64,000 nt of DNA from Streptomyces niger (GTDB taxonomy: Bacteria; Actinomycetota; Actinomycetes; Streptomycetales; Streptomycetaceae), in contig NZ_JOFQ01000001.1 of assembly GCF_000718305.1 (NCBI RefSeq), positions 620,001 through 684,000 on the forward strand. The letters run 5' to 3'. Both the position numbers and the translations under genes were made by a program. Below are positions 23,166 to 45,726 of this stretch, in pieces (positions within the stretch are counted from its first letter, which is position 1; each line of letters opens with the position of its first letter). Under the pieces are notes generated by a model. The model was not told where the DNA came from. It ran no database searches and saw only the letters and a list, made by a program, of their open reading frames with translations.

Positions 23166-23198
23166 GGTGTTTTCCTTTCGGGTGCTACCGCATCGATG

Positions 23199-23211
23199 AA
23201 TGCGTATGCAG
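23199..23211. promoter_or_regulatory. LacI operator-like site before the SnoaL gene
   Basis: AATGCGTATGCAG, a variant of the ATACGTAT-type dyad found before the other transcription units of this cluster, 34 bases from the SnoaL start. Confidence 0.5.
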
Positions 23212-23264
23212 AGAGGGTTGGCCGGAGGTGGCGGACGGCGGCGCTCAGCCCGCCTCCATGGGCA

Positions 23265-24611: not shown

Positions 24612-24689
24612 GGCTTCTCCGTTCGCGCGGTGCGGGAGTCAGAGGGGTTTCACGGGGAATTCACGAGGGGTGCGACGAGGGCGCGTGCT

Positions 24690-24702
24690 ATGCATACGTA
24701 TG
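24690..24702. promoter_or_regulatory. LacI operator-like site before the MFS gene
   Basis: ATGCATACGTATG, centred on the palindrome ATACGTAT, in the 154-base gap between the aldolase stop and the MFS start. Confidence 0.6.
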
Positions 24703-24765
24703 AACAACACGGCGATGCGCCGACCCTAGAGAGGGCGGTGGGGGGCGTCAAGAGGTGGCACGCGG

Positions 24766-26339: not shown

Positions 26340-26440
26340 ACGGCACCTCCGGTGTCCCGTGTCGGGCGACCGTTGCCGGGCTCCGCGCTGCCGACGCGCG
26401 TCGCATCGACGAGTTCGGGGGGTGGTGGACATCGCAGCAT
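26336..26440 (-). CDS. Candidate 34-residue leader or small protein
   Basis: An ATG at 26438-26440 preceded by GAGGAGAG at ideal spacing opens a 34-codon frame starting MLRCPPPPELVDATRV. It ends in a TGA that overlaps the SDR start as ATGA. The placement is that of a translational coupler; the Cys and four consecutive prolines are unusual. No homologue is recognised. It may be only a leader that lets ribosomes reach the SDR gene, or a real small protein. Confidence 0.4.
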   Translation of the reverse strand: MLRCPPPPELVDATRVGSAEPGNGRPTRDTGGAV

Positions 26441-26543
26441 GGTGACTCTCCTCGGAAGGGTGCCGGAGGGGGTGGAAGGGTGTGGGAGGGGGTGGGAGCG
26501 GACGAGCGGTGGTGAGAGAGTTCGGGCGGGGGTGAGTGGGTGT
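26441..26543 (-). promoter_or_regulatory. C-rich, G-poor transcript segment (rut-like)
   Basis: In the transcribed (minus) sense this ~100-base gap after the hydrolase gene is strongly C-rich and very G-poor, unlike the flanking coding sequence. That composition is characteristic of Rho-utilisation sites, so it may attenuate transcription between the hydrolase and SDR genes. No hairpin is seen. Confidence 0.35.
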
Positions 26544-27302
26544 TCAGGTGAGGGGTGGACGCGTACGCGGCGTCGCGCGCGTTTCCTCCGCCGCCGCGAC
26601 CAGGTCGCGTACCGCGGTGGCGACGGGCCCCGGTTCCTGAACGGGGAGCAGGTGGCCGGCGCCGGGGACCTCGGTCAGCCGGGCGTGCGGTACGGCGTCG
26701 GCGATCGCACGGTGGAAGTCCGGCGGGCACAACGCGTCCCGCGTGCCGTACAGGACGGTCACGGGGCAGCGGACGGTGCGCAGTGTGTCCTGCGCGTCGG
26801 TGCGGGTCGCCTGGGCGGCGAGCTGGGCGCGGGCGGCGACCGGGCCGACCCTGCGGGCCATGTCCCGGTAGCGGCGGGCCGGTTCGCGTGGCGGGTCGGG
26901 CACATCGAACATGCCGGGCAGGGTCCGCTCCACGACCTCCTCGAAGCGGCCCTCGGCGATCAGCCCGTCCATGGCGCGCCAGGCGGCGTACTGCTCCGGG
27001 CGCGGCGCCCCCGCGTTGGTCGACATCGCGCAGAACCCCGCGACCCGTCCGGGCGCTCGGCGCAGTACCTCGAAGCCGACGATCGCCCCGAGGCTGAGCC
27101 CCACGAGGACGAAGGGGCCGGGGACCGCCGACAGGACGTCGTCGGCCTGCCGGCCGATGTCGGGCCGGGTCAGCGCGACCTGCCGGACCCGGTGGTGTGC
27201 GGGGAACGCCACGCCGGACCAGAGGTCGTGGTCGCACAGCATGCCGGGGACCACCACCAGCGGCAGCGGGCCGGGCGCCGCGTCCGGAGCTGCGGTGGAC
27301 AT
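26544..27302 (-). CDS. Alpha/beta hydrolase (enol-lactonase/MhpC-like)
   Basis: 252 residues. Oxyanion region VVVPGMLCDHDLW, nucleophile elbow GLSLG (Ser), acid in LYGTRDALCPP and His in GAGHLLPVQEP complete a Ser-Asp-His triad. Size and cap suit PcaD-like enol-lactonases or meta-cleavage product hydrolases. Its ATG shares one base with the stop of the bicupin gene (TGATG), so it is coupled to it. It fits a ring-cleavage dioxygenase followed by hydrolase and aldolase. The C-terminal tail is Pro/Thr-rich. Confidence 0.85.
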   Translation of the reverse strand: MSTAAPDAAPGPLPLVVVPGMLCDHDLWSGVAFPAHHRVRQVALTRPDIGRQADDVLSAVPGPFVLVGLSLGAIVGFEVLRRAPGRVAGFCAMSTNAGAPRPEQYAAWRAMDGLIAEGRFEEVVERTLPGMFDVPDPPREPARRYRDMARRVGPVAARAQLAAQATRTDAQDTLRTVRCPVTVLYGTRDALCPPDFHRAIADAVPHARLTEVPGAGHLLPVQEPGPVATAVRDLVAAAEETRATPRTRPPLT

Positions 27303-28438
27303 CAGCGCCGCGCGGAGCGGGGCAGCAGGGCGTACGGGGCGACGTAGCCGTTGTGGTCGACACCGAGGCCGGCGTCGGCCGCGGCCTTGACGACCTCCTC
27401 GTCCCACTCCAGACGCACCCGGCCGTCGCCGCCGTTGACGATCAGGACGTCGCCCTCGGACTCCCCGACGTTGCGGAGGGTGCGCCAGGCGCCCTCGGGG
27501 ACGGAGAGGATGTCGCGCGGCCCCAGGCGCACCGAGACCGGGTCGGTGCGGTTCAGGGTGACCTCCCAGAGCCCGTCCTTGACGATCAGCGCCTGGGTCT
27601 CGTGCTGGCGGTGCCACGAGACGCCCTGCCCCGGCTCGGCGCGCAGCCAGGCGGCGTTGTGGCCGTGCGGGTTGTGGATCCGCGGCTCCTGGTGCAGGTC
27701 CTCGGTCATGCCGTAGCCGATGACGCAGCTCAGTCGCGCCCCGCCACCCGGCAGCGTGCTGTCGAGGAAGGGGCGGTCGGACCAGACCAGTTCGTCGGAC
27801 GCGGCGACGCGTCGGTTCATCTGCTCGGTGCTGTAGCTGCGCAGCCGGTCGATGTACTCCTGCGCCATCGGCTGGGTCAGCTCGGTGTCGGCGGGCACCT
27901 CGTCGCCGGCGACCGTGTCGATGAGCTTGTTGTCAGCCGTGAGGTACAGGCCGTGGCCCTCCGCTTCGCGCAGCACCGAGGGGCCCCAGATGATGCCGCC
28001 GGTGTTGTCCATGCCGAGGACGGTGAACATCCAGCCGTCGTCCGGTCCGGTGTTGGTGAAGCCGCGGAAGATCCAGGTGGGGATCGAGGCCACGTCGCCG
28101 GCCTTGAGGGTCAGCTCGCCCTCGTCGCCGTCGGCGCCCCAACGCAGCAGGTATTCGCCCTCGGTGCAGATGAACACCTCGGCGGTGTAGTGCAGGTGGA
28201 GGTTGTTGGTGACGCCGTTCGGCATGGCCGCCGCGCCGATCTGGAAGCCGTGCGGGAGGCGGAGGTTGACGTGCTGCCCGGAGGACTGCGAGACCCCGGG
28301 CCCGATCATCGCGTAGTTCTCCTTCCGGTCCGAGCCGGGCGTACGGCAGTCGATGAAGGCCTGGTTGCAGGAGACGAAGTCGCTGCGGCGGATCGTGCGG
28401 CGATCCAGTTCGGCGGTGGTCACGACGACATCGGACAC
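27302..28438 (-). CDS. Bicupin protein, gentisate-dioxygenase-like
   Basis: 378 residues with two cupin barrels. The first holds NNLHLHYTAEVFICTEGEYL, giving metal-binding His/Glu, and the second GVSWHRQHETQALIVKDGLW. This layout matches gentisate/salicylate-type ring-cleavage dioxygenases (about 350-380 residues), in which the N-terminal cupin binds Fe(II). It is the first gene of the operon under the divergent LacI regulator. The GTG start (28436-28438) has AAGGAG 7 bases upstream; no ATG fits better. The substrate is inferred as a hydroxylated aromatic acid. Confidence 0.75.
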   Translation of the reverse strand: MSDVVVTTAELDRRTIRRSDFVSCNQAFIDCRTPGSDRKENYAMIGPGVSQSSGQHVNLRLPHGFQIGAAAMPNGVTNNLHLHYTAEVFICTEGEYLLRWGADGDEGELTLKAGDVASIPTWIFRGFTNTGPDDGWMFTVLGMDNTGGIIWGPSVLREAEGHGLYLTADNKLIDTVAGDEVPADTELTQPMAQEYIDRLRSYSTEQMNRRVAASDELVWSDRPFLDSTLPGGGARLSCVIGYGMTEDLHQEPRIHNPHGHNAAWLRAEPGQGVSWHRQHETQALIVKDGLWEVTLNRTDPVSVRLGPRDILSVPEGAWRTLRNVGESEGDVLIVNGGDGRVRLEWDEEVVKAAADAGLGVDHNGYVAPYALLPRSARR

Positions 28439-28489
28439 GGTCGCTCCTTCTCTCGGAATTCCCCCGAGGTCTCTCGGAAATTGCCGTGG

Positions 28490-28623
28490 AATACGTATGC
28501 ATTGATCTGACAGCTCCGTATCCGGCACTGTCAAGGGGTCGGTGGCGATCGATTGCAGGCGTATGCTGCACAGGAACGGACGCGAGGCCGACTGCCGGGC
28601 CCCGGCGTCTACATACGTATACT
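28490..28623. promoter_or_regulatory. Divergent promoter region with LacI operators
   Basis: AATACGTATGCATTG (28490-28504) lies next to the bicupin start and TACATACGTATACT (28610-28623) next to the lacI start. Both contain the palindrome ATACGTAT. A GCGTATGC variant lies at 28559-28566. The arrangement suits autoregulated, divergent control with possible looping. Confidence 0.65.
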
Positions 28624-28666
28624 CCTGGCCGTACGGGCCGGTGCCGCGGACCAGGCGAGGGGATGA

Positions 28667-29671
28667 GTGCGGGTGGCGATCACGAGTCACGATGTGGCGA
28701 GGCTGGCGGGCGTCTCGCAGGCCACGGTCTCCCGTGCGCTCCGTGACGACCACCGGGTGTCGGCGGCCACCCGCGAGAAGGTCCGGCAGGCGGCGCAGGC
28801 GCTGAACTACTTCCCCAGCGAGGCCGGACGGACCCTGTCCACCCGCGCCACGCGCCGCGTCGGGGTCATCGTCACCGACCTGACGAACCCGTTCTACCCG
28901 CACGTCGTCGCCCCGCTGCACGACGAGCTCCAGGCCCTCGGCTACCGCATGATGCTGATCACCGAGCGGTCCGACGAGGCGGTGGCGGGCGAGAAGCTCC
29001 TGGACCAGTCCCTGGACGGGGTGGTCCTGGCGACCGCGACCACCGAGTCCCGGCTGCCGGCCCAGCTGGACCGCCGCGACATCCCCTACGTGTTCCTCAA
29101 CCGCGACACCGGGCAGCCGGGCGACTACGCGTCCGTCGTGGACAACGAAGGCGGCGGCCGGCTGGTGGCCGGGGTACTCGCCGAGCTGGGGCACCGCCGC
29201 ATCGCCGGCATCTTCGGCTCGCCCAACACGACCACCGGCCGGGACCGCGAGCTCGGCTTCCGCCTGGCGCTGGCCGAGGCGGGCATCGGCCTGCCGGACA
29301 GCCGGGTCGTCCGCGGTGCCTTCGAGTACGCGACGGGGTACGACGCGCTCCCCCGGCTGCTGGCCGCCGACGAGCCGCCCACCGCCGTCTTCTGCGGCAA
29401 CGACGTGGTCGCCATCGGCGCGCTGAACGCGGCCATCGCGGCCGGGCTGCGGGTGCCGGACGACCTGACGGTGATCGGCTTCGACGACCTGCCGATGGCC
29501 GACTGGGAGGTGTTCCGTCTGACCACCGTCCGCCACGACCTGCGGGAACTGGCCCGCCAGGCAGCCCGTCTGCTGGTGCGCCGGATCACCGGGGAGGCCG
29601 ATCCGGCCGGCGAACGCCTCGTCCTGCCGACCGAATTCGTACCCCGGGCCACACACGCGCGCCTGCACTGA
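28667..29671 (+). CDS. LacI-family transcriptional regulator
   Basis: 334 residues. The N-terminal LacI helix-turn-helix is TSHDVARLAGVSQATVSRAL with the hinge NYFPSEAGRTLSTRATRRVG, followed by a periplasmic-binding-protein-like effector domain with LTNPFYPHVVAPLHDE and PTAVFCGNDVVAIGALNA. It is divergent from the bicupin operon. The start is GTG 28667, 4 bases after GAGGGG, or GTG 28673 at a better 10-base spacing. It probably represses the cluster until a pathway compound binds; LacI control of aromatic-type genes is less usual than GntR or IclR control. Confidence 0.9.
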   Translation: MRVAITSHDVARLAGVSQATVSRALRDDHRVSAATREKVRQAAQALNYFPSEAGRTLSTRATRRVGVIVTDLTNPFYPHVVAPLHDELQALGYRMMLITERSDEAVAGEKLLDQSLDGVVLATATTESRLPAQLDRRDIPYVFLNRDTGQPGDYASVVDNEGGGRLVAGVLAELGHRRIAGIFGSPNTTTGRDRELGFRLALAEAGIGLPDSRVVRGAFEYATGYDALPRLLAADEPPTAVFCGNDVVAIGALNAAIAAGLRVPDDLTVIGFDDLPMADWEVFRLTTVRHDLRELARQAARLLVRRITGEADPAGERLVLPTEFVPRATHARLH

Positions 29672-29695
29672 CCCACCCGCTCGCCGGATCGCCGG

Positions 29696-31186
29696 TCAGC
29701 GTTGCGGTGCGCTCTCGCGCCGGGCGGCCGGGCCGCGGGCGCCGGCGTCCGGTGGCTCCGTACCGTCGGAGCGGGCCGGCGATTGCGTACCGGCGGAGTG
29801 GCCGGTGCCGGAGCCGCTGCCGTACTTGCGCTGGAGCCGCAGGCCCACGGTGACGAGGACCGCGGCCAGGCCGAACGTAAGCCAGAGTTCGAGGCGGTGT
29901 CCGGGCAGGATCGCCATCAGGACCAGCACGCCCGCGATGAAGACGATCGTCGCCACGGTGAGGTACGGGAAGAGCCACATCCGCACTTCGGCGGGTTCCT
30001 GCCGGCGGCGCCGGGTGGCGTACTGGGTGACCGCGATGACCAGGTACATCATCAGCGCGATCGCTCCGCTGGACGCCAGCAGGTACGTGAAGACCTGCGG
30101 CATCAGGTAGTTGGCGAGGACCGCGACGATGCCGACGACGGTGGACGCGGCGACCGCGTTGCGGGGCACGCCACCGCGCGAGACGACCGCGAAGGCCGTC
30201 GGTGCGTCCTTGCGCCGCGCGAGGGAGAAGGCCATGCGGGAGGCGGTGTAGATGGCCGAGTTCAGGCAGCTGCACACCGCGATGACGACCACCACGTCCA
30301 TGATCTGGCGTGCGCCCGGGACGTTCATGCGCTCCAGGACGGCCTGGTAGGAGCCGGCGGCCAGCCCTTCGGCGTTCCACGGCACCAGGCTGACCACGAG
30401 GAAGATCGAGCCGAGGTAGAAGAGCCCGAGCCGCCACACGACGGCCTTGACGGCCTTCTTGATGTTCTTCTTCGGGTCCTCCGACTCGGCCGCCGCGATG
30501 GTGACGATCTCGCTGCCCTGGAAGCTGAACATCGCGGTGAGCAGGGCGGCGAGCACGGCGATGCCGCCCTTGGGCGCGAAGCCGCCGTTGCTCCAGAGGT
30601 TCGACACGCCGCTGGTTCCCGAGCCGGGCAGCACGCCGAAGACCGCGAGGAGGCCGAGGACGAGGAAGCCCACGATCGCGATGACCTTCAGCAGCGCGAA
30701 CCAGTACTCGAACTCGCCGTAGTTCCGGACGGCGAGCAGGTTGGTGCCCGCCAGTACGGCGATGACCGCGAAGGTGGGGAGCCAGCTGGGCACGCCGGTC
30801 ATGCCGCCGAGCACCTCACCCGCGGCGATGGCCTCGATGGGGATGACCAGGACGTAGAACCACCAGTAGAGCCAGCCGATGGAAAATCCGGCCCAGCGGC
30901 CCAGGGCCCGGTCGGCGTAGGTGGAGAAGGAGCCGGTGTCGGGGTTGGCCACGGCCATCTCGCCGAGCATCTGCATGACCAGGACCACCAGCGCGGCGGC
31001 GGCCAGGAACGCGAGGATGACGGCGGGGCCCGCGGTGGCGACGGCGGTGGACGAGCCGACGAACAGGCCGGCTCCGATCACACCGCCGATCGAGATCATC
31101 GTGATCTGGCGGCCCTTGAGTCCCTGGGTGAGCTGCGCTCCGCCGGGGCTGCCGGAGGGCGGTGGGACGGGTGACTCGTGTGGCAT
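29696..31186 (-). CDS. APC-family amino acid permease
   Basis: 496 residues with 12 helices. The N-terminal GLKGRQITMISIGGVIGAGLFVG split across helix 1 is the amino acid transporter signature, and GGVPRNAVAAS precedes helix 9. Relatives are GABA-, proline- and aromatic-type permeases (GabP/AnsP-like). The C-terminal 35 residues are a hydrophilic Ser/Gly/Pro tail. It lies 66 bases after the HisD-like gene on the same strand, with a hairpin between them, so it may have its own promoter. It may import the substrate of the HisD/amidohydrolase cluster. Confidence 0.85.
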   Translation of the reverse strand: MPHESPVPPPSGSPGGAQLTQGLKGRQITMISIGGVIGAGLFVGSSTAVATAGPAVILAFLAAAALVVLVMQMLGEMAVANPDTGSFSTYADRALGRWAGFSIGWLYWWFYVLVIPIEAIAAGEVLGGMTGVPSWLPTFAVIAVLAGTNLLAVRNYGEFEYWFALLKVIAIVGFLVLGLLAVFGVLPGSGTSGVSNLWSNGGFAPKGGIAVLAALLTAMFSFQGSEIVTIAAAESEDPKKNIKKAVKAVVWRLGLFYLGSIFLVVSLVPWNAEGLAAGSYQAVLERMNVPGARQIMDVVVVIAVCSCLNSAIYTASRMAFSLARRKDAPTAFAVVSRGGVPRNAVAASTVVGIVAVLANYLMPQVFTYLLASSGAIALMMYLVIAVTQYATRRRRQEPAEVRMWLFPYLTVATIVFIAGVLVLMAILPGHRLELWLTFGLAAVLVTVGLRLQRKYGSGSGTGHSAGTQSPARSDGTEPPDAGARGPAARRESAPQR

Positions 31187-31212
31187 GGGGTGGTCCTCGG
31201 GGAGTGTGACGG

Positions 31213-31244
31213 GCCCCGCCTCCCGGAAGCCGTGGAGGCGGGGC
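31213..31244. terminator. Hairpin between HisD-like and permease genes
   Basis: 11-bp perfect stem (31213-31223 with 31234-31244) and a 10-base loop, 8 bases beyond the stop of the HisD-like gene. Confidence 0.65.
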
Positions 31245-31252
31245 GGACGAGG

Positions 31253-32614
31253 CTACAGCTGCTCGCGCAGGGCCTCCGGGACGGAGTCGAAGGCACCCGA
31301 GTGCCGGCCGATCTCGTCGATGCGCAGGGTGGCGGTGGCGCCGTGCGCCGCCAGGCCCTCGAATGCGGAGATCCGCTCGACGGCCGGGGCCAGCGCTGCC
31401 GTGCCCTCCTTGGCGGCGCGCTGGTAGGTCAGCGGCTTGAGGAAGCGGGACACCGAGAGCCCGGCGTTGTAGCGGGCCGTCTTGCCGGTCGGCAGGACGT
31501 GGTTGGTGCCGGCGATGCCCTTGTCGGAGTAGGCCACCGTGCTCCAGGGGCCGATGAACAGCGAGCCGTAGTTGGTGAGGTTCCGCAGGTAGAAGTCGTC
31601 GTCCTCGGTCTGGATCTCCAGGTGCTCGGGGCCCAGGACGTCGGCCACGGCGACGGCCTCGTCGGCGTTGCGCACGACGATGACGGAGCCGAAGTCGCGC
31701 CAGGCGGCGCCGGCGATCTCCCGGGTGGTGAGCGTTTCGAGCTGCCGGTCGATCTCGGCGATGACCTTGCGGCCCAGCTCCTCGGACGTGGTGATCAGCG
31801 CGGCCGGGGAGTTCGGTCCGTGCTCGGCCTGGCCGAGCAGGTCGGCGGCGACCCAGGCGGGGTTCGCGGTGTCGTCGGCGAGGACGGCCACCTCGGAAGG
31901 GCCGGCGAGCAGGTCGATGCCGACCTGGCCGAACAGCTGCCGCTTGGCCTCGGTGACGAAGGCGTTGCCGGCGCCGACGAGCATGTCGACGGGGGCCTCG
32001 CCGAGCAGCCCGAAGGCCATCGCGCCCAGCGCCTGTACGCCGCCGACCGCGAAGACCCGGTCGGCCTGGGAGAGGTACGCGCCGTACAGCACTGCGGGGT
32101 GCGCACCGTGCTCTCCCGACGGCGGGGTGCACGCCACGACGGTGGGCACGCCGGCCGCCTTGGCGACGCCGACGGTCATGAAGGCGCTGGCCAGCAGGGG
32201 GAAGCGGCCGGCCGGGAGGTAGCCGCCGACCCGGGTGACCGGGACGTAGCGCTGGCCGCCCCGCACGCCCGGGGCGAGCTCTATCTCGAAGTCGGTCAGG
32301 TGCTCACGCTGGGCGGAGGCGAAGCGGTGCGTCCGCTCGTAGCCCATTTCGAGCGCGGTACGGACGTCGGGCGGCAGCGCGTCGCCGGACTTCTTCAGCT
32401 CGTCGGCGCCGATCTCCAGCTCCCCGGACCAGCCGTCGAGCTCCTCGGCGTAGGCGCGGACGGCGTCGAGGCCCTTGCGCTCGATGGTGGAGAGCATCTC
32501 CGAGACGCGCTCGACGACCTTGGGGTCGCGCTGCGCGGGAGGGCCGTCGACGGCCGGCTTCTTGAGCCACTGGAACGGGGCGAGGGCTTGGGCTTCGTCG
32601 TGCGTGATCTGCAT
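31253..32614 (-). CDS. HisD-family NAD-dependent dehydrogenase
   Basis: 453 residues of the histidinol dehydrogenase family. Conserved parts include VPVTRVGGYLPAGRFPL, VDMLVGAGNAFVTEAKR, DLLAGPSEVAVLADD (with the HisD-type GPSE), EHGPNSPAALIT and GPEHLEIQT. Key zinc-ligand and base positions (Gln in LGQAEH, Glu/His in GPEHLE) are present. HisD oxidises histidinol in four-electron steps; paralogues such as HpsN oxidise other primary alcohols. There are no other his genes here, so a paralogue role with the linked LysR and amidohydrolase genes is likely. Start uncertain: ATG 32614 chosen, ATG 32644 overlaps a dyad. Confidence 0.75.
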   Translation of the reverse strand: MQITHDEAQALAPFQWLKKPAVDGPPAQRDPKVVERVSEMLSTIERKGLDAVRAYAEELDGWSGELEIGADELKKSGDALPPDVRTALEMGYERTHRFASAQREHLTDFEIELAPGVRGGQRYVPVTRVGGYLPAGRFPLLASAFMTVGVAKAAGVPTVVACTPPSGEHGAHPAVLYGAYLSQADRVFAVGGVQALGAMAFGLLGEAPVDMLVGAGNAFVTEAKRQLFGQVGIDLLAGPSEVAVLADDTANPAWVAADLLGQAEHGPNSPAALITTSEELGRKVIAEIDRQLETLTTREIAGAAWRDFGSVIVVRNADEAVAVADVLGPEHLEIQTEDDDFYLRNLTNYGSLFIGPWSTVAYSDKGIAGTNHVLPTGKTARYNAGLSVSRFLKPLTYQRAAKEGTAALAPAVERISAFEGLAAHGATATLRIDEIGRHSGAFDSVPEALREQL

Positions 32615-32641
32615 GTCAGGGACGGTAGAGCGCACACCATC

Positions 32642-32690
32642 CATAGGACCAGAGGAGTGATTCCTGCGCCTCCCACAGGGTTGCCCTATG
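32642..32690. promoter_or_regulatory. Inverted repeat between lysR and the HisD-like gene
   Basis: CATAGG (32642-32647) and CCTATG (32685-32690) form a spaced dyad in the 108-base gap before the HisD-like gene. It could be the binding region for the adjacent LysR protein. The evidence is modest because the arms are short. Confidence 0.35.
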
Positions 32691-32722
32691 CCTCAGCTTG
32701 TCCTGTGCCGTGTGCGGGGTGC

Positions 32723-33634
32723 TCAGCCCTGCACCTCCTCGCGGAGCTCGCGGATGGTGTCCTCCGCGAGGCGGGCGAGCTCGCGGGTGGCCCGGGACAA
32801 CGGGTGCCCGCGCCGCCTGACCAGCGCGATCGTGTCGTACAGCGGCTCGGCGAAGGGCACGGTGTGCAGTCCGGCCGGGAGGCTCGGGCTGTCGATCACC
32901 GCGCGGCTGGCGATCGTGTCGCCCACTCCGGCGGCGGCGAGTTTCAGCGCCGCCTCGACGCGCTCCAGCTCCATCAGCGGTTCCACGCGGACGCCGGCCA
33001 GCTGGGCGCGCTCGGCGATCTGCCGCCGGGTCGGGTCCTCCCATCCGTAGTGGGCGTCGTACAGCACGAGCGGTGCCGCGGCGAAGGCCTCGATGGTGAC
33101 GGGCGCCGCGGCGCGCTCCGGGTCCGCGGTGACGTAGTAGACCTCGTCCCGCATGAGCGGCCGTACGACCAGGCCTTCGTCGTCGATCGGCAGCACCACC
33201 AGGCCCGCCTCGATCTTGCCGGCGGCGACGGCGTGGGCGGTCTCGGCGGAGTTCTGCCCGACGAGGCGTACGCGGACGGCGGGGTACCGGGCGTGGAAGG
33301 TCTGCGCGAGGTTGGCGAGGAGGTAGTAGTCGGCGTTGCGCAGGACGCCGAAGGTGGCGGTGCCGCCGCCCAGCGATCCGAGGGACCGCACCGCCTTCAC
33401 GCCGCCGTCCGCGGCGCGCAGCGTCTCCTGTGCGTACGGCAGCAGCTCGCGCCCGGCCGCGGTGAGGGCGAGCCGGCGGCTGCCGCGGACGAACAGGACG
33501 GCGTCCAGTTCCTCCTCCAGGCGGCGTACCAACTCCGACACGGAGGCCTGCGCGATCTCCATGGCCGCCGCCGCGGCGGTGAAGGAGCCGAGCCGCTCGG
33601 CCTCGGCGAAGGCGCGCAGCTGATTGAGCGTCAT
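32723..33634 (-). CDS. LysR-family transcriptional regulator
   Basis: 303 residues. The N-terminal winged helix is MTLNQLRAFAEAERLGSFTA with recognition helix MEIAQASVSELVRRLEEEL, then a two-lobed effector domain (VGQNSAETAHAVAAGKIEAG, YDAHYGWEDP). It lies between the amidohydrolase and HisD-like genes on the same strand rather than divergently, so it probably belongs to the cluster and activates the HisD/permease part. The ATG at 33632-33634 starts the domain in the usual place; GGTGGG lies upstream. The effector is unknown. Confidence 0.88.
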   Translation of the reverse strand: MTLNQLRAFAEAERLGSFTAAAAAMEIAQASVSELVRRLEEELDAVLFVRGSRRLALTAAGRELLPYAQETLRAADGGVKAVRSLGSLGGGTATFGVLRNADYYLLANLAQTFHARYPAVRVRLVGQNSAETAHAVAAGKIEAGLVVLPIDDEGLVVRPLMRDEVYYVTADPERAAAPVTIEAFAAAPLVLYDAHYGWEDPTRRQIAERAQLAGVRVEPLMELERVEAALKLAAAGVGDTIASRAVIDSPSLPAGLHTVPFAEPLYDTIALVRRRGHPLSRATRELARLAEDTIRELREEVQG

Positions 33635-33750
33635 GCGGTGGCCCACCGGGTACGAGGGGACGGTGCGGTCGGGGCGTACGGAGGTCGGTGGCCGTCCGGG
33701 GTGGCGGGTGCTCCGCAGGGTGTGGCTGTGCGCATGCGCGGCACTATAGG

Positions 33751-35187
33751 TCAACCCTGTGGACCAGGGGCCGGCGCTTCGGCGGGCAGCCAGCTGCCGT
33801 CGGGTGCGCCGAACCACGGGTGCGCACCGCGGCCGTCGTAGATGACCTGGCCGCGGCGTACGGTGACGTCCGGGCGGCCGGTGAAGGTCCACCCCTCGTA
33901 CGCCGACCAGCCGCACTTGGACCGGGCGTGCTCGGCGGACATGCACCAGGTGCGCTCGGCATCGAAGAGGACGAAGTCGGCGTCCAGCCCCGGGAGGATG
34001 CGTCCCTTGCGCCCGGCCAGGCCGAAGAGGTCGGCCGGCGTGGCGGAGGCCAGCCGGGCGATCCGCAGCAGCGCCTCGTCGGCCGGCAGCTCGGGGTGGC
34101 GGCGCCGCATTCCGGTGTGGACCGCGGTCAGCAGTTCCTGCGTGCCGGGCAGTCCGGGCGGTGCGTCCGGCACCGGCCGGACCTTCTCCTCGATGGTGTG
34201 GGGTGCGTGGTCGCTGCCGATCGTGGCCACGCCGCCGGCCATCAGCGCTGCCCACAGCCGGTCCTGATCATGGGCGGTGCGAAGGGCGGGGCTGAGCCGG
34301 AGGCGGGCGCCCTGTCGCCGGGTGTCGGTGGCCGTGAAGGACAGGTGGTGCGCGGTGACTTCGTGGGTGAGGGGCAGTGCGGCGGCGGCCGCGGCACGCA
34401 GCAGGTCGGACTCCTCGGCGGAGGAGACGTGCACGACGTGTGTCGCGGTGCCGTGTCTGCGTACCAGCTCGATGACGCGGGCCGCGGCCACGATCCCCCC
34501 GGTACGCGGCCGGCGGGACTCGTAGGACGCGTAGCTGTCCGGCGGTGTGAGGAAGGCGTCGAGCAGGGTGAAGACCCCGTCGTCCTCCGCGTGCAGGACG
34601 AGGCGGAGACCGCGCTCGGCGGCCAGGGCGAAGATCCGGTCCAGGGTCGCCGGGTCGCGGATGACGTGCGGCGCGGTGTGGTGCCCGGTCATGAACACCT
34701 TGACGGAGGTCGCGAGTTGCGGGGTGAGGTCGCGCAGCCGGTCGACGGTCTGCTCGGTCACCCCGAAGTGGAAGCGGTGGTCCACCAGCGAGGTGCCCTC
34801 GATGAGTGCGGCCTTCGCGGCGGCCTCGCCCGGATCGGTCAGCGGGGGCCGGGTGTTGGGCATGTCGATGACGGTGGTCACGCCGCCTGCCGCCGCCGCC
34901 CGGCTGCCGTGTGCCCAGTCCTCCTTGTGGGTCAGGCCGGGGGTGCGGAAGTGCACGTGCGAGTCGATCACACCGGGCAGGAGGTGGCGGCCCGCCGCGT
35001 CCAGTACGCGGTGCGCCGCGGGGCGGGCATCGGGCGCGGTCAGTGCGGTGATGCGGCCACCGTCGACCGCCACGCCGGCGCGGCGCACACCGTCCGGCGT
35101 GACCACGCGCGCGCGGATCACCAGGAGGTCGTGGGCCCTGTGTGCGGTGCCGTCCGAGCCCGCTCTCAGGCGGTCAGCGGCCGGCAT
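33751..35187 (-). CDS. Cyclic amidohydrolase (dihydroorotase/hydantoinase/allantoinase family)
   Basis: 478 residues with all metal-binding features: DSHVHFRTPG (His77, His79), the carbamylated Lys163 in TSVKVFM, LHAED (His199), a later HHL, and GSDHAPH. DMPNTRPP is typical of allantoinases and dihydroorotases. These enzymes open or close rings such as hydantoin, dihydropyrimidine or dihydroorotate. The ATG (35185-35187) has AGGAGG 7 bases upstream and overlaps the AsnB-PrpF gene by 22 bases, so the two are tightly coupled. It is not next to pyr or allantoin genes. A role on an amidated, ring-forming product is inferred. Confidence 0.85.
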   Translation of the reverse strand: MPAADRLRAGSDGTAHRAHDLLVIRARVVTPDGVRRAGVAVDGGRITALTAPDARPAAHRVLDAAGRHLLPGVIDSHVHFRTPGLTHKEDWAHGSRAAAAGGVTTVIDMPNTRPPLTDPGEAAAKAALIEGTSLVDHRFHFGVTEQTVDRLRDLTPQLATSVKVFMTGHHTAPHVIRDPATLDRIFALAAERGLRLVLHAEDDGVFTLLDAFLTPPDSYASYESRRPRTGGIVAAARVIELVRRHGTATHVVHVSSAEESDLLRAAAAAALPLTHEVTAHHLSFTATDTRRQGARLRLSPALRTAHDQDRLWAALMAGGVATIGSDHAPHTIEEKVRPVPDAPPGLPGTQELLTAVHTGMRRRHPELPADEALLRIARLASATPADLFGLAGRKGRILPGLDADFVLFDAERTWCMSAEHARSKCGWSAYEGWTFTGRPDVTVRRGQVIYDGRGAHPWFGAPDGSWLPAEAPAPGPQG

Positions 35188-38060
35188 ACCGGGTCCTCCT
35201 GGTCGAAGTCGCACAGTGAGGTGATGCGGGCGCTGCCGGTGAGGTGGGCGAGCTTCCGGCTGACGCTGACCCACTGGAGGGTGAGGGAGTCGTCGTCCTC
35301 ACCGTCTGACGGGCCAGCCGCCGCGACGACGGCCGCGGTGGCGGCGGTGGAACCGCTCGGAGTGTCGATCTCGATCACCCCACGGGGGCAGCCCGCTTCC
35401 TGCGCCAGGCGGTGCGGAACGGTGCCGGCGATGGTGGTCGCGGCGGCCAGGCAGGTGGCCCCGGTCAACGCGACGCTGGGGTGCCAGCCGGGGACGGAGA
35501 CGGCGCGGACGGCCAGCCGGCCCGTCTCGTAACCGCCCACCGCGGCAATCTTGGGGAAGGCGCCGCCGCCGGGCAGGCCGAGGAGTTCGGTGGCGGCGAT
35601 GCGGATGTCCTGCAGCCGGCCGAAGACGTGCTCACCCGCGGCGAACAGCGCTTCCTTGCTGGTCAGGCCGAGCGATCGGGCATCGACGAAGACGTAGGGG
35701 TTGCCGACCGCGACGAGGGAGGCGGCGTGTGCGCCGGCCCGCGTCAGCAGCTGGTCGGTGCAGTGGCCGGTGAGGAGGAACCGGGTGACCGGGAGCGGGG
35801 TGTCCTGGACGAAGTGCACGGTGAAGCTGCCGCTGTGGCGGCGTACCTCGTCCACTTCGCACACCACGTGGTCGCCGTTGTTGAGCACGCGGACGCGCAC
35901 CCGGTCGCCCGGCGCCAGCCGGGGCAGCCAGCCGCGTTCCTCCGCCGCGACGATGGCCGCGAGGATGGAGTGGCCGCAGTTGCCGCGGAAGTCGAAGCGG
36001 TCCAGCCCACCGGGGAGCGCCTGGACGAAGCGGTAGTCCAGGTCGAAGAGCGGGTGCTTCGAGGGGTTCAGCAGCGCCATCTTGAGCACGTGTCCCCGGC
36101 CGGTGTCGGTCAGCCACTCGCGGACGGTGGTCAGCGCCGGCCGGAGTACGTCCTCGTTCCGCGGCAGCCGGTCGGCGTCCAGCACCACGGTCGGGCACGG
36201 CGCGCCCTCCGCCTGCGCGATGTGCGCGGTCATCGGGTTGCCCACGGCACCACCGCCACTGTCCGGCAGCCCGGTGGGGGCGGGGCAGAACTGCTCCAGC
36301 CACAGCTCGTGCACCAGCAACGACCAGATGGCGAGCGCGGTGGTGTCGTCGGGCGTCTCGGCCTGTCGCTCGATCAGCCGGGCCACCCGCTGCGGGTCCA
36401 ACTGACCGCGTCGGCGCAGCCGTTCGCCGGTGAGGAGCTCACGTGCGTACTCCATCAGCGGCGCGCCGGGTCGCAGCATGGCGGCGATCGGGAGGGTGAA
36501 GGGCTGCTTGGGCCGGCGGAGCACCGAGTCGGGCAACCGGCCGGCGGCCGCCCGGTAGAGCACCTTCTTGCCCTGCCCGCCCGCCACCTTCCACTCCTGC
36601 GGCAGCGCCCGCGCGTGGCGGAGGACCGAGCGCTGGCAGAACGGCAGCCGCACCTCGACCGAGGCCGCCATGGACAGGTGGTCCACCCGGCGCAGGTGGT
36701 AGGCGGGCAGCCGGGAGCCGATCTCGAAGTCCGTGAGGGTGCGCAGCCGGTCGGTGCCGGCGGCGCGCAGTCGCGCGGCGATGGCGTCGGCCGGGGAGCC
36801 CTCCTGCCGCACGAACGCGCGGTAGTCCGCGGTGTAGAGCGAGGCGCGCAGCTCGCGGGGTACGGCGGCCAGGGCCTCGACGTACGGGGGCACCCAGTCC
36901 GTATCTGACGGTGCGTCGACCGCGGCCTTCATCCGGCCGTACCCGCCGAAGAGTTCGTCCGCCGCGTCGCCGGTGAGGGCCACGGTGAAGCCGGCGTCGC
37001 GCACCGCCCGGAACAACGCGTACGTGCTGAGGGTGATCGGGTCGGCGTTGGGCTGGCCCAGGTGCCAGACCACGTCCGGCAGCAGGTCGGGGAAGCCCGC
37101 CGGATCGATCTCCACCTGGTGGTGGCGGGTGGCGCAGTGCTCGGCGACCTCACGGGCGTAGCCCCGTTCGTCGCAGGGCCAGCTGCCGCGGTAGGCGATG
37201 TTGAAGGTGTGCAGGTCGGCGAGGTCTTCCGCGGCCAGCGCGGTGACGAGGCCGGAGTCGAGACCGCCGCTGGTGACGGCGGAGACCGGTACGTCGGCGC
37301 GGGTGAGCCGGTGCACTTCCCTGCGCAGCAGTGTTAGCGTCCGTTCGGCGGCCTCCTCCCCATCCTGCTGAACGTCGGCGTCGTCCGGGTGCTCGGGGGC
37401 CGGGCGCCGGACGAGGCGGAGTCCGCCGGAGCGGGTGAAGCGGGCGGTGGTGGCGGGTGGCAGCACCTGGACGCCCTCGAACATGGTCTGTTCGCCGAAG
37501 GGGGTCTTGGTGGCGAGATAGGCGTCCAGCCCCGGTTCCCAAGGGCGTGCCGTGACGCCGCGGAAGGCGAGCAGGGCGGGCAGTTCGGAGGAGAAGTGCA
37601 GGTGTCCGCGTGCCTCATCCCAGTGGTGGTACAGCGGCTTCATGCCGACGTCGTCGGTGACGAGCCAGAGGGTGGGTTCCGTGCGCAGATCGACCAGCGC
37701 CACCGAGAACATGCCGTCGAGGTGTTCGGCGAAGGCGGGGCCGAACTCCTGGTACAACGCCGGGATCACCGAGCCGTCGCAGCGGTCGGCGAAGGTGTGG
37801 CCACGAGCGGTGAGTAAGTCGCGCAGCTCGTCGTGGTTGTAGATCTCGCCGTTGAAGACGGCCACGATGTTCTCGCCCAGGGTGTAGGGCTGTGCACCGC
37901 CGTCCAGGTCCACCACGGCCAGCCGGTCGGCGCCCAGCGCCCACCCGGCACCGGACGTACGGGTCTGCGCGTCGGGGCCGCCGTGCCGCTGGAGCGCGGC
38001 CACCGTCCGGAGTTCGTGCGGCGTGGCCCGGGCGTCGAAGTGGCCGAAGATTCTGCACAT
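35166..38060 (-). CDS. Asparagine synthetase B-PrpF fusion with a TTA codon
   Basis: 964 residues. Residues 1-200 are a class II glutamine amidotransferase with catalytic Cys2 (MCRIFG) and VFNGEIYNHDEL. Residues 240-595 are asparagine synthase with the PP-loop TSGGLDSG (263-270), ALTGDAADELFGGY (361-374) and DHLSMAASVEVRLPF (460-474). From about 608 a PrpF-like (DapF-fold) domain begins, with VVLDADRLPRN, FRGNCGH (Cys695) and a VALTGATCLAAAT repeat. The usual PrpF GGTSKG loop reads EGAPCP. AsnB adds ammonia to an acyl-adenylate; PrpF proteins isomerise aconitate-like acids. Residue 82 is TTA (37815-37817), implying bldA control. The AsnB half matches AsnB length, so this is a true C-terminal addition. 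Confidence 0.85.
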   Translation of the reverse strand: MCRIFGHFDARATPHELRTVAALQRHGGPDAQTRTSGAGWALGADRLAVVDLDGGAQPYTLGENIVAVFNGEIYNHDELRDLLTARGHTFADRCDGSVIPALYQEFGPAFAEHLDGMFSVALVDLRTEPTLWLVTDDVGMKPLYHHWDEARGHLHFSSELPALLAFRGVTARPWEPGLDAYLATKTPFGEQTMFEGVQVLPPATTARFTRSGGLRLVRRPAPEHPDDADVQQDGEEAAERTLTLLRREVHRLTRADVPVSAVTSGGLDSGLVTALAAEDLADLHTFNIAYRGSWPCDERGYAREVAEHCATRHHQVEIDPAGFPDLLPDVVWHLGQPNADPITLSTYALFRAVRDAGFTVALTGDAADELFGGYGRMKAAVDAPSDTDWVPPYVEALAAVPRELRASLYTADYRAFVRQEGSPADAIAARLRAAGTDRLRTLTDFEIGSRLPAYHLRRVDHLSMAASVEVRLPFCQRSVLRHARALPQEWKVAGGQGKKVLYRAAAGRLPDSVLRRPKQPFTLPIAAMLRPGAPLMEYARELLTGERLRRRGQLDPQRVARLIERQAETPDDTTALAIWSLLVHELWLEQFCPAPTGLPDSGGGAVGNPMTAHIAQAEGAPCPTVVLDADRLPRNEDVLRPALTTVREWLTDTGRGHVLKMALLNPSKHPLFDLDYRFVQALPGGLDRFDFRGNCGHSILAAIVAAEERGWLPRLAPGDRVRVRVLNNGDHVVCEVDEVRRHSGSFTVHFVQDTPLPVTRFLLTGHCTDQLLTRAGAHAASLVAVGNPYVFVDARSLGLTSKEALFAAGEHVFGRLQDIRIAATELLGLPGGGAFPKIAAVGGYETGRLAVRAVSVPGWHPSVALTGATCLAAATTIAGTVPHRLAQEAGCPRGVIEIDTPSGSTAATAAVVAAAGPSDGEDDDSLTLQWVSVSRKLAHLTGSARITSLCDFDQEDPVCRPLTA
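36641..36693. repeat. Source copy of a 53-bp duplicated asnB segment
   Basis: These 53 bases inside the asnB part encode the conserved HLSMAASVEVRLP region. The same 53 bases recur at 41521-41573 with a single mismatch, outside any gene. Confidence 0.85.
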
Positions 38061-38379: not shown

Positions 38380-38742
38380 TCAGACGGTTCCCGCGGTGAG
38401 GCGGGCCGCGACGCACGGCGGCAGGTTGGGGGAAGCCGTGGACAGCTCGATGTAGACCATGCCGTCCGCGACGAGGACCTCGTGCGTGCGTACCGGGCGC
38501 CGGGCCGGCGGCGCGTCGACGGCGCCGGTCCGGAGGTCGAATTTCGAGGAGTGCAGCGGGCATTCCACCTCGCAGCCCTCCAGCCAGCCGTCGGCGAGCG
38601 AGGCGTCCTGGTGGGTGCAGGTGTCGTCGATGGCGTAGAACTCGCCGCCCTCGGTGTGGAAGACCGAGACGGGCGGGTCGATGTCAAGCCGGTAGGCCTC
38701 GCCTCGGGGCAGATCCTCGAGACGGCACGCGGGAATCATCAT
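38380..38742 (-). CDS. Rieske [2Fe-2S] ferredoxin
   Basis: 120 residues. The Rieske cluster motif is complete: Cys42-Thr-His44 in DTCTHQDASL and Cys61-Pro-Leu-His64 in VECPLHSSKFDL. The length fits a stand-alone ferredoxin that feeds electrons to a Rieske oxygenase or cytochrome P450. No oxygenase or reductase partner is encoded in the window. GAGGTG precedes the ATG, and a TTGCGTAT-type element lies 11 bases further upstream. It is divergent from the MFS gene and shares a 443-base promoter region with it. The same elements flank the folD and purU genes, hinting at a demethylation pathway. Confidence 0.9.
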   Translation of the reverse strand: MMIPACRLEDLPRGEAYRLDIDPPVSVFHTEGGEFYAIDDTCTHQDASLADGWLEGCEVECPLHSSKFDLRTGAVDAPPARRPVRTHEVLVADGMVYIELSTASPNLPPCVAARLTAGTV

Positions 38743-42820: not shown

Positions 42821-43833
42821 ATGACTGTGCACGCGTATGCGGTGGAGCGGGCGGGTGGCCCTGTGCAGGTGCGTCAGTACGAACCGGAGCCGCTGGGACC
42901 TCTTGAGGTGGACATCTCCGTGACCCACTGCGGCGTCTGCCACACCGATATAGGCATGATCGACAACAGTCACGGGATCTCACGGTTCCCGGTGGTAGCG
43001 GGGCATGAGGCTGTCGGGGTGATCACGGCATTGGGTGACGCCGTGGACCGCTCCCGCCTCACTCTGGGACAGCGTGTGGGAATCGGCGCGTACGCGGGGT
43101 CGTGCTTCGCCTGCGAGTGGTGCATAACCGGCCGCCAGCACCTGTGCCCGGCCGGCGACGCAACCGTCTTCCGCGGCGACCGCGGCGGGTTCGCCACTCA
43201 ACTCCGCGCCAGCGACTGGCGGCATGTGCACCCGCTCCCGGACGTCATCACCTCCGAGCAGGCAGGGCCGCTGCTGTGCGCCGGTGCGACCGTTTTCTCG
43301 GCCATCGTGCGTCACGACGTCCGGCCCACAGACCGGGTCGCCGTCGTGGGTGTGGGCGGTCTGGGCCACCTGGCCATCCAGTTTCTGGCCAAGTGGGGCT
43401 GCCACGTCACCGCCGTTTCCAGGAGTGCCGAGAAGGCGGACGACGCCCGCCGTTTCGGCGCCCACGCGGTCGTCACCCCCCCCACGACGGGTTCGAGGAC
43501 CTGGCCGGCTCGTTCCACTTCGTACTGTCCACCGTCTCGGGTGATCTGCCGTGGGACACGTACCTCAACGCGTTGCGCCCTCAGGGAACCCTGTGCGTGG
43601 CCGGCGTCCCCGACAGCAGCTTCACCGTGCACCCACTCAGCATCCTGACGGGCGAAAGAAAACTCGCGGGAGGCCTCACCGGGACGCCCGCCGAGACCCG
43701 GCAGATGCTTGACTTCGCCGCGCGCCACGGGATCCGCCCCGCCACGGAGACATACCCGGTCTCCCGCATCAACGAGGCGCTCGACCACGTTCGCCGTGGT
43801 CGAGCGCGCTACCGCGCCGTCCTTGAGATGTGA
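42821..43833 (+). pseudogene. Zinc alcohol dehydrogenase, frameshifted in a C-run
   Basis: Two frames join into one ~337-residue medium-chain dehydrogenase. The first (from 42821) has HCGVCHTDIG (catalytic zinc Cys), GHEAVG, CFACEWCITGRQHLC (structural zinc Cys set) and the cofactor loop VVGVGGLGHLA. The second frame carries HFVLSTVSGDLPWDTYLN to the stop at 43833. The break is at a run of eight C (43476-43483); one extra C restores the protein. It resembles YahK/cinnamyl-alcohol-type enzymes. It may be a real mutation, slippage-prone variant or sequencing error. It is divergent from and probably controlled by the TetR gene. Confidence 0.8.
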
Positions 43834-44124: not shown

Positions 44125-44126
44125 TC
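44098..44126 (-). terminator. Intrinsic terminator for the minus strand
   Basis: A GAGGGCC/GGCCCTC 7-bp stem (44104-44110 with 44120-44126) followed, in the minus sense, by a run of five T. This is a classical Rho-independent signal directly at the end of the truncated folD frame. Confidence 0.7.
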
Positions 44127-44544
44127 AGTACTCCGGTCTGACTTCGCGATCTTGCGGCGGACCCGGCTGGGAACGGGTACGGCCGTCGGCGTCCTTCGCC
44201 GGGTCCATCCGCTCCAGTACGGCGTTGGCGTCGAGCCCGCGCGGCAGGGGCAGCTGGACGATGTAGCCGGTGCACGCCGGGTCGGCGTTGAGTTCGTCGA
44301 TGACGCGCTCCACCTGCTCCTGGGTCGCGTCGGCCGGCAGCTCGCGCCGGATCGAGGCGATCCCGACCTGCGCGCAGTCGCGGTGTTTGCCGCCGACGTA
44401 GGCGTGGCTGCCGGGGTCGTCCCCGACCAGTACCGTGCCGAGGCCGGGTACGACGCCGCGTTCGGCCAACGCCGCGACGCGGCTGGTGAGTTCGGTGCGG
44501 ATGGCGGCCGCGGTGCGTCGCCCGTCGAGGATGGTGGCGTTCAT
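44125..44544 (-). pseudogene. folD: Truncated FolD (methylene-THF dehydrogenase/cyclohydrolase)
   Basis: The N-terminal half of FolD is clear: [29 protein letters not shown] with catalytic Lys53, GYIVQLPLP and DPAKDADG. At 44182 the homology stops; the frame continues 19 codons of foreign sequence to TGA. The NADP-binding half (about 160 residues) is gone, so it cannot be active. The foreign part contains TACTCCGGTCTGACTTCGCG, which resembles the IS-end sequence at 41757, suggesting IS-mediated truncation. The start has AAGGGGAG upstream. FolD would interconvert methylene- and formyl-THF, upstream of PurU. Confidence 0.85.
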
Positions 44545-44610
44545 TCGTCTCCCCTTTGCCGGCCCTGTCGGCCTCACCGGCCGCGGAGGATCATCGGCAT
44601 GACCTGCCGG

Positions 44611-44836
44611 GCGTTGCTTTATACGCAACGCATATCGAAATGCGCAACACGCAGTGCAGCCCGTCCGGAGCACTGTCAAGAGGTGATTGCCGGGGCTGTG
44701 CAGGCGAGTTGAAGTACCGGCATTCGGCCGGGGCGACGCCCCGACGCGCAGGTGGGCGAGGTCGGAACGGGGGCTTGACCGCGAACCGTCACGTCCGGAC
44801 CATGTTGCGTATCAAACACGCTGTTGCGTATTGCGC
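44611..44836. promoter_or_regulatory. Divergent folD-purU operators of the TTGCGTAT type
   Basis: On the folD side are GCGTTGC/GCAACGC (44611-44617 and 44625-44631, containing ATACGCAA) and CGCAT/ATGCG (44629-44644). On the purU side are TTGCGTATCAAACACG (44805-44820) and TTGCGTAT again at 44824-44831, 19 bases apart. They resemble the elements at 38753 and 39030, which implies a common regulator encoded elsewhere. No gene is seen in 44545-44853. Confidence 0.65.
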
Positions 44837-44853
44837 TTCTCCTTGGAGGCCCG

Positions 44854-45726
44854 ATGTCCGCTCGACCGCAGCCCGCGCGCGAGTTCGTCCTCACCGTCTC
44901 GTGCCCCGACCGCTCCGGCCTCGTCCACGCCGTCACCGGCTTCGTCGTCCAGCACTCCGGGAACATCGAGGAGAGTCAGCAGTTCGACGACCGACTGCAG
45001 GACCGCTTCTTCCTCCGTATGCGCTTCCATGTGCCGGATCCGGACACGTCGCTGGACGATCTGCGTTCCGGTTTCGCGCCCGTCGCGGAGGCGTACCGCA
45101 TCTCCTGGAATCTCTACGAGGCGTCGACCCCCACCCGTACGCTGATCATGGTGTCGAAGTTCGGCCACTGCCTGAACGACCTGCTCTTCCGGCGCAGCAC
45201 CGGCGCGCTCAACGTCGAGATACCGGCGATCGTCTCCAACCACCGCGACTTCGAAGCCCTGGCGGAGAGCCACGGCATTCCGTTCCACCACATCCCCGTG
45301 ACGCGGGAGACGAAGCCCGAGGCGGAGGCGCGGCTGTTGGAGCTCGTCGACGAGCTCGACATCGACCTGGTGGTTCTCGCCCGCTACATGCAGATCCTCT
45401 CCAACGACCTGTGCAAGCAGCTCGAAGGCCGGGCGATCAACATCCACCACTCGTTCCTGCCGAGCTTCAAGGGCGCGCGGCCGTACGCCCAGGCGCACGA
45501 CCGCGGCGTCAAGCTCGTCGGAGCCACGGCGCACTACGTCACCCCGGACCTCGACGAGGGACCCATCATCGAGCAGGACGTGGTCCGCGTGGACCACTCG
45601 CAGGGGCCCGAGAACCTGGTCGCCCTCGGCCGCGACGTCGAGGCACAGGTCCTCGCCCGCGCGGTGAAGTGGCACAGCGAGAGCCGGATCATGGTCAACG
45701 GGAACCGTACGGTCGTGCTGCGCTGA
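44854..45726 (+). CDS. purU: Formyltetrahydrofolate deformylase
   Basis: 290 residues: an N-terminal ACT regulatory domain (FVLTVSCPDRSGLVHAVTGF) and a C-terminal formyl-transferase-type catalytic domain with the Asn196-His198-Asp234 set (INIHHSFLPSFKG and TPDLDEGP). PurU hydrolyses 10-formyl-THF to THF and formate. Outside purine metabolism it disposes of one-carbon units from demethylation, for example in actinobacterial betaine/sarcosine catabolism, where it pairs with folD as here. TTGGAGG lies just before the ATG. Operator repeats link it with the Rieske and MFS genes. Confidence 0.92.
   Translation: MSARPQPAREFVLTVSCPDRSGLVHAVTGFVVQHSGNIEESQQFDDRLQDRFFLRMRFHVPDPDTSLDDLRSGFAPVAEAYRISWNLYEASTPTRTLIMVSKFGHCLNDLLFRRSTGALNVEIPAIVSNHRDFEALAESHGIPFHHIPVTRETKPEAEARLLELVDELDIDLVVLARYMQILSNDLCKQLEGRAINIHHSFLPSFKGARPYAQAHDRGVKLVGATAHYVTPDLDEGPIIEQDVVRVDHSQGPENLVALGRDVEAQVLARAVKWHSESRIMVNGNRTVVLR

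Follow-up and report, generated by a model that had tools for sequence, protein, structure and literature searches.

Streptomyces niger encodes a single protein that combines an AsnB-type amidotransferase with a PrpF-type isomerase, and its gene may represent the merged form of a gene pair from a conserved biosynthetic cassette in which AsnB would carry out an amidation, PrpF would set a double bond and a dihydroorotase-like enzyme would close a ring, a reading to which we give a probability of about 0.5. The fusion provides direct genetic evidence that an amidotransferase of the AsnB type and an isomerase of the PrpF type work together, and it points to a conserved, apparently undescribed cassette that occurs among many different tailoring genes in actinobacteria. 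The fusion is itself a local merger of two ordinary neighboring genes and is of modest novelty, and it is the cassette that is the worthwhile lead. No paper describing the cassette was found in the open-access literature that was searched, and in the accessible part of a paper on phosphonates (PMC7858074), PrpF occurs solely in the title of a reference.

The features are given below with their positions in the window, by which is meant the whole stretch of DNA that was analyzed (64,000 nucleotides).

33751..35187, minus strand: dihydroorotase/hydantoinase-like cyclic amidohydrolase, overlapping the fused gene by 22 bp, with HxH, Lys163, His199, His253 and Asp326 kept
35166..38060, minus strand: fused gene for an AsnB-type amidotransferase followed by a PrpF-type isomerase, 964 aa (Pfam, NCBIfam, fused relatives)
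35169..36233, minus strand: PrpF-fold domain, residues 610-964, with Lys660, Cys695 and Lys837 invariant (Pfam, alignment, model, Foldseek)
36234..36287, minus strand: linker, residues 592-609, an insertion relative to unfused genes (junction compared with five unfused loci)
36294..37334, minus strand: synthetase (Asn_synthase) part, residues 243-589, with SGGLDS at 264 and GDAADELFGGY at 364
37566..38060, minus strand: glutaminase (GATase_7) part, residues 1-165, with the nucleophile Cys2 located (Pfam 45-165)
38380..38742, minus strand: Rieske ferredoxin, similar to the ferredoxin of 3-phenylpropionate dioxygenase, upstream of the fused gene and noted for its position, its membership of the unit being uncertain

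The fused frame runs from 38060 to 35166 with an ATG start, 964 codons and a third-position GC content of 0.92, and the plus strand across the same stretch is interrupted by stops. A stop between the two domains had been named as a possible refutation when the protein was first noticed, and the frame contains none. The original prediction that a complete class II AsnB precedes a PrpF domain within 964 residues is borne out by the order of the Pfam domains, which are GATase_7 at 45-165 (E 4.8e-32), Asn_synthase at 243-589 (2.8e-79) and PrpF at 660-907 (3.5e-18), and by the NCBIfam profile asn_synth_AEB, which scores 336.1 bits and passes its cut-off of 267.1. Cys2, SGGLDS, GDAADELFGGY and Cys695 likewise lie where that prediction had placed them, and the loop it had read as EGAPCP is found at 618-623. 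AsnB forms amides on free acids using glutamine and ATP, and the AsnB half of the fused protein is, judging from its sequence, a complete glutaminase plus ATP-dependent synthetase. It has the N-terminal Cys nucleophile with a glutaminase domain and the ATP pyrophosphatase domain with SGGLDS, the latter motif at 264 being kept in 92/92 aligned sequences. The individual residues of SGGLDS and GDAADELFGGY are conserved in 81-92 of the 92 aligned sequences, with Leu370 being variable.

LigU-type enzymes shift the double bonds of unsaturated acids, and the PrpF half of the protein has, judging from its sequence, the fold and the Lys/Cys pair of such 1,3-allylic isomerases. That the C-terminal part should adopt a DapF-type fold was confirmed by a confident AlphaFold2 model of residues 601-964 (22 sequences; mean pLDDT 92.7, pTM 0.90), for which the first 15 Foldseek matches in the PDB all fall in the PrpF branch, namely 3-methylitaconate isomerase, YbhH, PrpF-family proteins or LigU. 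Hydroxyproline epimerase, proline racemase and DapF follow further down the list. In a profile alignment, Lys660 and Cys695 coincide with Lys66 and Cys100 of LigU, whose variants K66M and C100S appear among the PDB titles, and Lys660, Cys695 and Lys837 are present in 92/92 aligned PrpF sequences. Two PrpF relatives that are linked to a nonribosomal peptide synthetase (NRPS; loci L069 and L070) and lie outside this set of 92 have Thr at the position of LigU Lys66.

The loop GGTS(K/R)G is a motif of PrpF proper and of OMA tautomerase. It is replaced by EGAPCP in the fused protein, and since the loop is G(A/S)PxP-like throughout the subfamily, its alteration is not a private defect of the fused protein; nor does it imply a dead isomerase, because Lys660 and Cys695 are kept in 92/92 sequences. 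The fused protein misses the NCBIfam equivalog cut-offs for both OMA tautomerase (82.2 vs 440 bits) and PrpF (26.8 vs 440.55 bits). PDB titles include members of the PrpF family bound to trans-aconitate, and an aconitate-like substrate for the fused enzyme is possible.

The fusion is real and rare. Residues 600-960 were searched against 5.8 billion proteins and the 7997 candidates sharing the most words with the query were scored. The same full-length fusion was present in P0002 (964 aa, Streptomyces olivaceiscleroticus, 2 member sequences), which is 98% identical over 600-960, and in P0003 (966 aa, Streptomyces sp. NPDC053560, 4 member sequences), which is 92% identical over the same range. 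Its occurrence in two further database proteins means that it is not a sequencing slip. Together with the window protein this makes three sequence clusters among the 7997 scored candidates, which are part of the possible matches, such that more diverged fusions could be missed. Both relatives retain all of the motifs, and the window copy is therefore probably still working. How the fusion arose can be seen at the junction, where the AsnB stop overlaps the PrpF start in 5/5 unfused loci compared (L001, L033, L034, L035 and L071), the longer linker of the window protein brings both domains into one frame, and Met610 occupies the position of the start codon of unfused PrpF. The view that the fusion is the essential novelty is not supported, as the fusion is a merger of usual neighbors, is found in three clusters, and involves a pair that is normally partnered by two further enzymes.

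These partners, acyl-CoA-dehydrogenase-like and dihydroorotase-like proteins, were seen when the gene neighborhood was compared across 100 distinct loci, drawn from 2 plasmid records, 40 stretches chosen mostly for having both genes and the best 80 of 236 relatives, one of which (L133) was dropped because no PrpF gene was called. The set is not random, the window copy is not among the 100, duplicates were dropped by identical PrpF C-termini, and genes were called by our own script with approximate starts. AsnB lies directly upstream of PrpF at 95 of the 100 loci, and the complete order AsnB-PrpF-dehydrogenase-like-dihydroorotase-like is found at 86, with the dihydroorotase-like gene present at 94 and the dehydrogenase-like gene at 90. 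Because part of the set was hand-picked, a recount was made for the 79 loci fetched via PrpF alone, which gave 76 with AsnB directly upstream and 73 with the full order. The 95 adjacent pairs overlap by 4 bp (77 pairs) or 1 bp (9 pairs) or are separated by gaps of 44-70 bp (9 pairs). Of what had been proposed for the fused enzyme, the presence of a complete AsnB and a PrpF-fold domain in one chain is supported, and so is the link between amidation and isomerization, the latter by this neighborhood as well as by the fusion. The hosts of the cassette include Streptomyces, Actinokineospora, Lentzea, Streptosporangium, Amycolatopsis and Saccharothrix, and a PrpF relative at E <= 1e-60 occurs in 45/394 sampled genomes of the family.

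The exceptions comprise five loci where AsnB is not directly upstream of PrpF (L045, L069, L070, L083 and L099) and nine more that have AsnB and lack the full order. In the cassette L045/L119 (Streptomyces diastatochromogenes ATCC 21481), AsnB was called as two fragments and there is no dehydrogenase-like gene. Five of the 100 loci have AsnB and PrpF without the dehydrogenase-like and dihydroorotase-like genes, and ring closure is therefore not the sole context of AsnB-PrpF; four of these five (L062, L064, L065 and L067) have very different neighbor genes. In these four, the pair is found beside a GT4 glycosyltransferase, a PIG-L deacetylase, a MetRS-like protein and an SDR (Pfam assignments for L064 only), a gene set reminiscent of mycothiol synthesis with its glycosyltransferase, deacetylase and tRNA-synthetase-like ligase.

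Dihydroorotase forms a six-membered ring by joining an amide-type nitrogen to an acid, and the substrates of dihydropyrimidinases include cyclic imides, for example succinimide and glutarimide. The product of the gene beside the fused gene is, by its residues, a metal-dependent cyclic amidohydrolase with a full set of metal ligands (His77, His79, Lys163, His199, His253 and Asp326), which are kept in 92/92 sequences. It is closest to dihydroorotase, allantoinase and hydantoinase, barely passes the broad NCBIfam subfamily TIGR00857 (280.2 vs 279.05 bits) and stays below every equivalog cut-off in the 25 families listed, with a best score of 325.8 vs 482 bits for dihydroorotase. The presence of such a partner suggests that the amide serves to close a ring and is not the end product.

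A flavin reductase is found near 35 of the 100 cassettes and an FAD monooxygenase near 38, with the two never occurring together and neither occurring near 27, and this mutual exclusion suggests two alternative oxidation routes. The reductase is closest to HpaC-type reductases, and the best matches of the monooxygenase include tropone 2-monooxygenase, a urate-hydroxylase-type protein and 6-hydroxynicotinate 3-monooxygenase, its single best PDB match being tropone monooxygenase, which is no pyridine enzyme. Acyl-CoA dehydrogenases carry a catalytic Glu, and the dehydrogenase-like partner has MGP at this site in 111/111 sequences (duplicates kept). Its role is uncertain with the usual Glu lost, and MGP would seem more in keeping with a flavin-fed oxygenase than with an acyl-CoA dehydrogenase. 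Also near the cassettes are genes for a cysteine-synthase-like enzyme (52 of 100), a serine-acetyltransferase-like hexapeptide protein (35), an ATP-grasp amino acid ligase (33), a C-glycosidase with an HAD phosphatase (7) and type II ketosynthase pairs (5). The best PDB match of the C-glycosidase is AlnA, followed by pseudouridine-5'-phosphate glycosidase. Plant cysteine-synthase-like enzymes couple pyridones or uracil to alanine, giving mimosine and willardiine, and the same chemistry would explain the 52 loci with such a gene. L069 (9275-15191) and L070 (9475-15303) have a PrpF relative with an EamA transporter and a single-module NRPS, and AsnB is absent from both. The L069 NRPS has an interrupted adenylation domain, a carrier and a thioesterase (Pfam), a layout at both loci that we take to be that of indigoidine synthetase; none of the profile libraries gave the L069 enzyme that name, the likeness being one of layout. 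The product of indigoidine synthetase is a pyridinedione that is used in minimycin, according to the accessible part of PMC8724604.

In contrast to the usual cassette, no dehydrogenase-like gene lies between the fused gene and the dihydroorotase-like gene, and among the 53 genes called in the window there is no dehydrogenase-like protein, C-glycosidase, phosphatase, cysteine-synthase-like protein, flavin reductase or flavin monooxygenase of the cassette families, nor is there an NRPS of the showdomycin/minimycin families beside the window copy. As these partners are absent, the pathway of the window copy may be shorter than usual or altered, or the copy may be declining; it may also feed a second cassette, use the upstream Rieske ferredoxin or make a simpler product. 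An HpcH/HpaI aldolase in the window was considered as a member of the unit and rejected, being 36% identical to cassette aldolases over about 200 residues and located in a separate operon 10 kb away. The block at 22167-33646 (minus strand, with one plus-strand gene), which encodes LysR, histidinol dehydrogenase, an amino acid permease, LacI, a cupin, a hydrolase, an SDR, an HpaI-type aldolase, a transporter and a SnoaL-like protein, is catabolic in appearance. Elsewhere in the window, the domains of a zinc-dependent alcohol dehydrogenase are split over two overlapping frames as if by a frameshift (42821-43833, plus strand), and a FolD catalytic domain, with the NAD-binding domain unmatched in the same ORF (44125-44679, minus strand), is near a PurU-like formyl transferase with an ACT domain (44824-45726, plus strand). 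A family search of the ORFs between 40.8 and 44.7 kb yielded nothing that bears on the fused gene.

The genome does hold one further AsnB-PrpF pair, which is unfused (L071, G000:C7:168500-188499). Its genes encode AsnB, PrpF, the dehydrogenase-like and dihydroorotase-like proteins, a flavin reductase, cupins, a C-glycosidase, an HAD phosphatase, an acyltransferase and an MFS exporter. Nowhere else in the genome is there a close copy of the dehydrogenase-like gene, the next best being 36% identical. The C-glycosidase matches AlnA (E 3.2e-90) and pseudouridine-5'-phosphate glycosidase, and it adjoins the HAD phosphatase as in YeiN-type clusters, an arrangement that is absent from the window, and L071 is a candidate for an unassigned C-nucleoside cluster. 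In a tree of the AsnB, PrpF and dihydroorotase-like proteins of 91 loci and the window (FastTree local supports, midpoint-rooted), L033, L035, L071 and five further loci form a group with the window copy (support 0.983). A wider clade adds L001, L034 and L080 (support 0.995), and 6 of its 11 loci carry the C-glycosidase, these being 6 of the 7 loci that have it.

In the proposed pathway, AsnB would use glutamine and ATP to amidate an unsaturated di- or tricarboxylate at one of its carboxylates, PrpF would move or re-set the C=C bond so that the amide and the remaining acid can meet, and the dihydroorotase-like enzyme would condense the two to a cyclic imide. An isomerase between amidation and ring closure is sensible because the right double-bond geometry is needed before closing. 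The fusion would hold the two steps at a 1:1 ratio and may hand on a labile intermediate. A six-membered ring, tautomeric with a 2,6-dihydroxypyridine and thus a deaza analogue of uracil or orotate, would be likelier than a five-membered maleimide, and is favored by the likeness to dihydroorotase, the hydroxypyridine-type monooxygenase and the occurrence of PrpF beside an indigoidine-synthetase-like NRPS. Showdomycin, which is likewise of the YeiN type, is a maleimide according to the accessible part of PMC8724604. In related clusters, the ring would be oxidized by a flavin enzyme and joined either to ribose, with a C-glycosidase of the YeiN type and a phosphatase as the enzymes, or to an alanine unit by a serine acetyltransferase and a cysteine-synthase-like enzyme. 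We tentatively extend this to a portable, NRPS-free cassette, an idea that is clearly less secure than the main reading, in which AsnB, PrpF, the dihydroorotase-like protein and a flavin enzyme would build a deazapyrimidine-like ring, in parallel with pyrimidine synthesis with carbon replacing one ring nitrogen, that is then joined to ribose to give new C-nucleosides or to alanine to give mimosine-/willardiine-like amino acids and peptides.

A simpler alternative, and the one first suggested for this protein, is that a single enzyme isomerizes and amidates an aconitate-like acid and that the open-chain amide is the product, with the dihydroorotase-like neighbor being incidental or a later, ordinary amidohydrolase. 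PDB titles show the PrpF family binding trans-aconitate and acting on unsaturated acids, and the five loci that have AsnB and PrpF without the dihydroorotase and dehydrogenase genes would fit, but a dihydroorotase-like gene at 94 of the 100 loci, the overlap of 22 bp with the fused gene in the window and the metal ligands kept in every sequence make this alternative unlikely. The fusion might also join steps that act on different intermediates of one pathway, fixing the protein ratio only and with no channeling. The 4 bp overlap in 77/95 pairs, from which it follows that AsnB and PrpF are probably translated together already, agrees with this, as do the rarity of the fusion and the small linker insertion that is enough to bring it about. 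However, PrpF still adjoins AsnB where the other partners are missing or have moved (L062-L068, L140), which favors direct cooperation, and a role in setting the ratio only is considered somewhat unlikely.

That the window unit is catabolic, with the amidohydrolase opening an imide or hydantoin and PrpF acting like LigU on a ring-cleavage acid, would be in keeping with a neighborhood of Rieske ferredoxin, LysR, histidinol dehydrogenase, amino acid permease, cupin, HpaI-type aldolase and transporters. A glutamine-dependent AsnB, however, spends ATP on making amides, and relatives are in clusters with C-glycosidase, ligases and ketosynthases, so that a catabolic role is highly improbable. If the biosynthetic cassette does make a pyridine-type or imide ring, it would make uracil-like bases and heterocyclic amino acids accessible without an NRPS and would provide a genome-mining handle for new antimetabolites.

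AsnB-type enzymes are the best PDB matches of both the fused protein and its unfused paralogue, and the fused protein has in common with TsnB9 (PDB 7ylz) and E. coli AsnB (1ct9) the Cys2 glutaminase, the SGGLDS ATP site and the two-domain layout, to which it adds a C-terminal isomerase domain. Enzymes of the TsnB9 type activate free carboxylates other than that of aspartate, and SaHAT, a homolog of TsnB9, acts on benzoic acid (PMC13418202, accessible part). With PrpF, 3-methylitaconate isomerase and LigU, the fused protein shares the fold, the motif order and Lys660/Cys695 as the equivalents of Lys66/Cys100, and it differs from them in having G(A/S)PxP instead of GGTSKG, an AsnB fused on and scores far under the NCBIfam cut-offs. 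The product of the neighboring gene shares its binuclear metal ligands, length and domain layout with dihydroorotase, allantoinase and hydantoinase, yet it scores just above TIGR00857 and reaches no equivalog cut-off among the 25 families listed. The YeiN-type C-glycosidase and HAD phosphatase of the showdomycin and minimycin clusters are also present in 7 of the 100 cassettes, among them the second cassette of this genome. The bases of showdomycin and minimycin are made from glutamine by NRPS enzymes, as described in the accessible part of PMC8724604, and on this ground the cassette was ruled out as a showdomycin/minimycin cluster. Unlike those clusters, the cassettes appear to rely on AsnB together with PrpF and a dihydroorotase-like enzyme in place of an NRPS.
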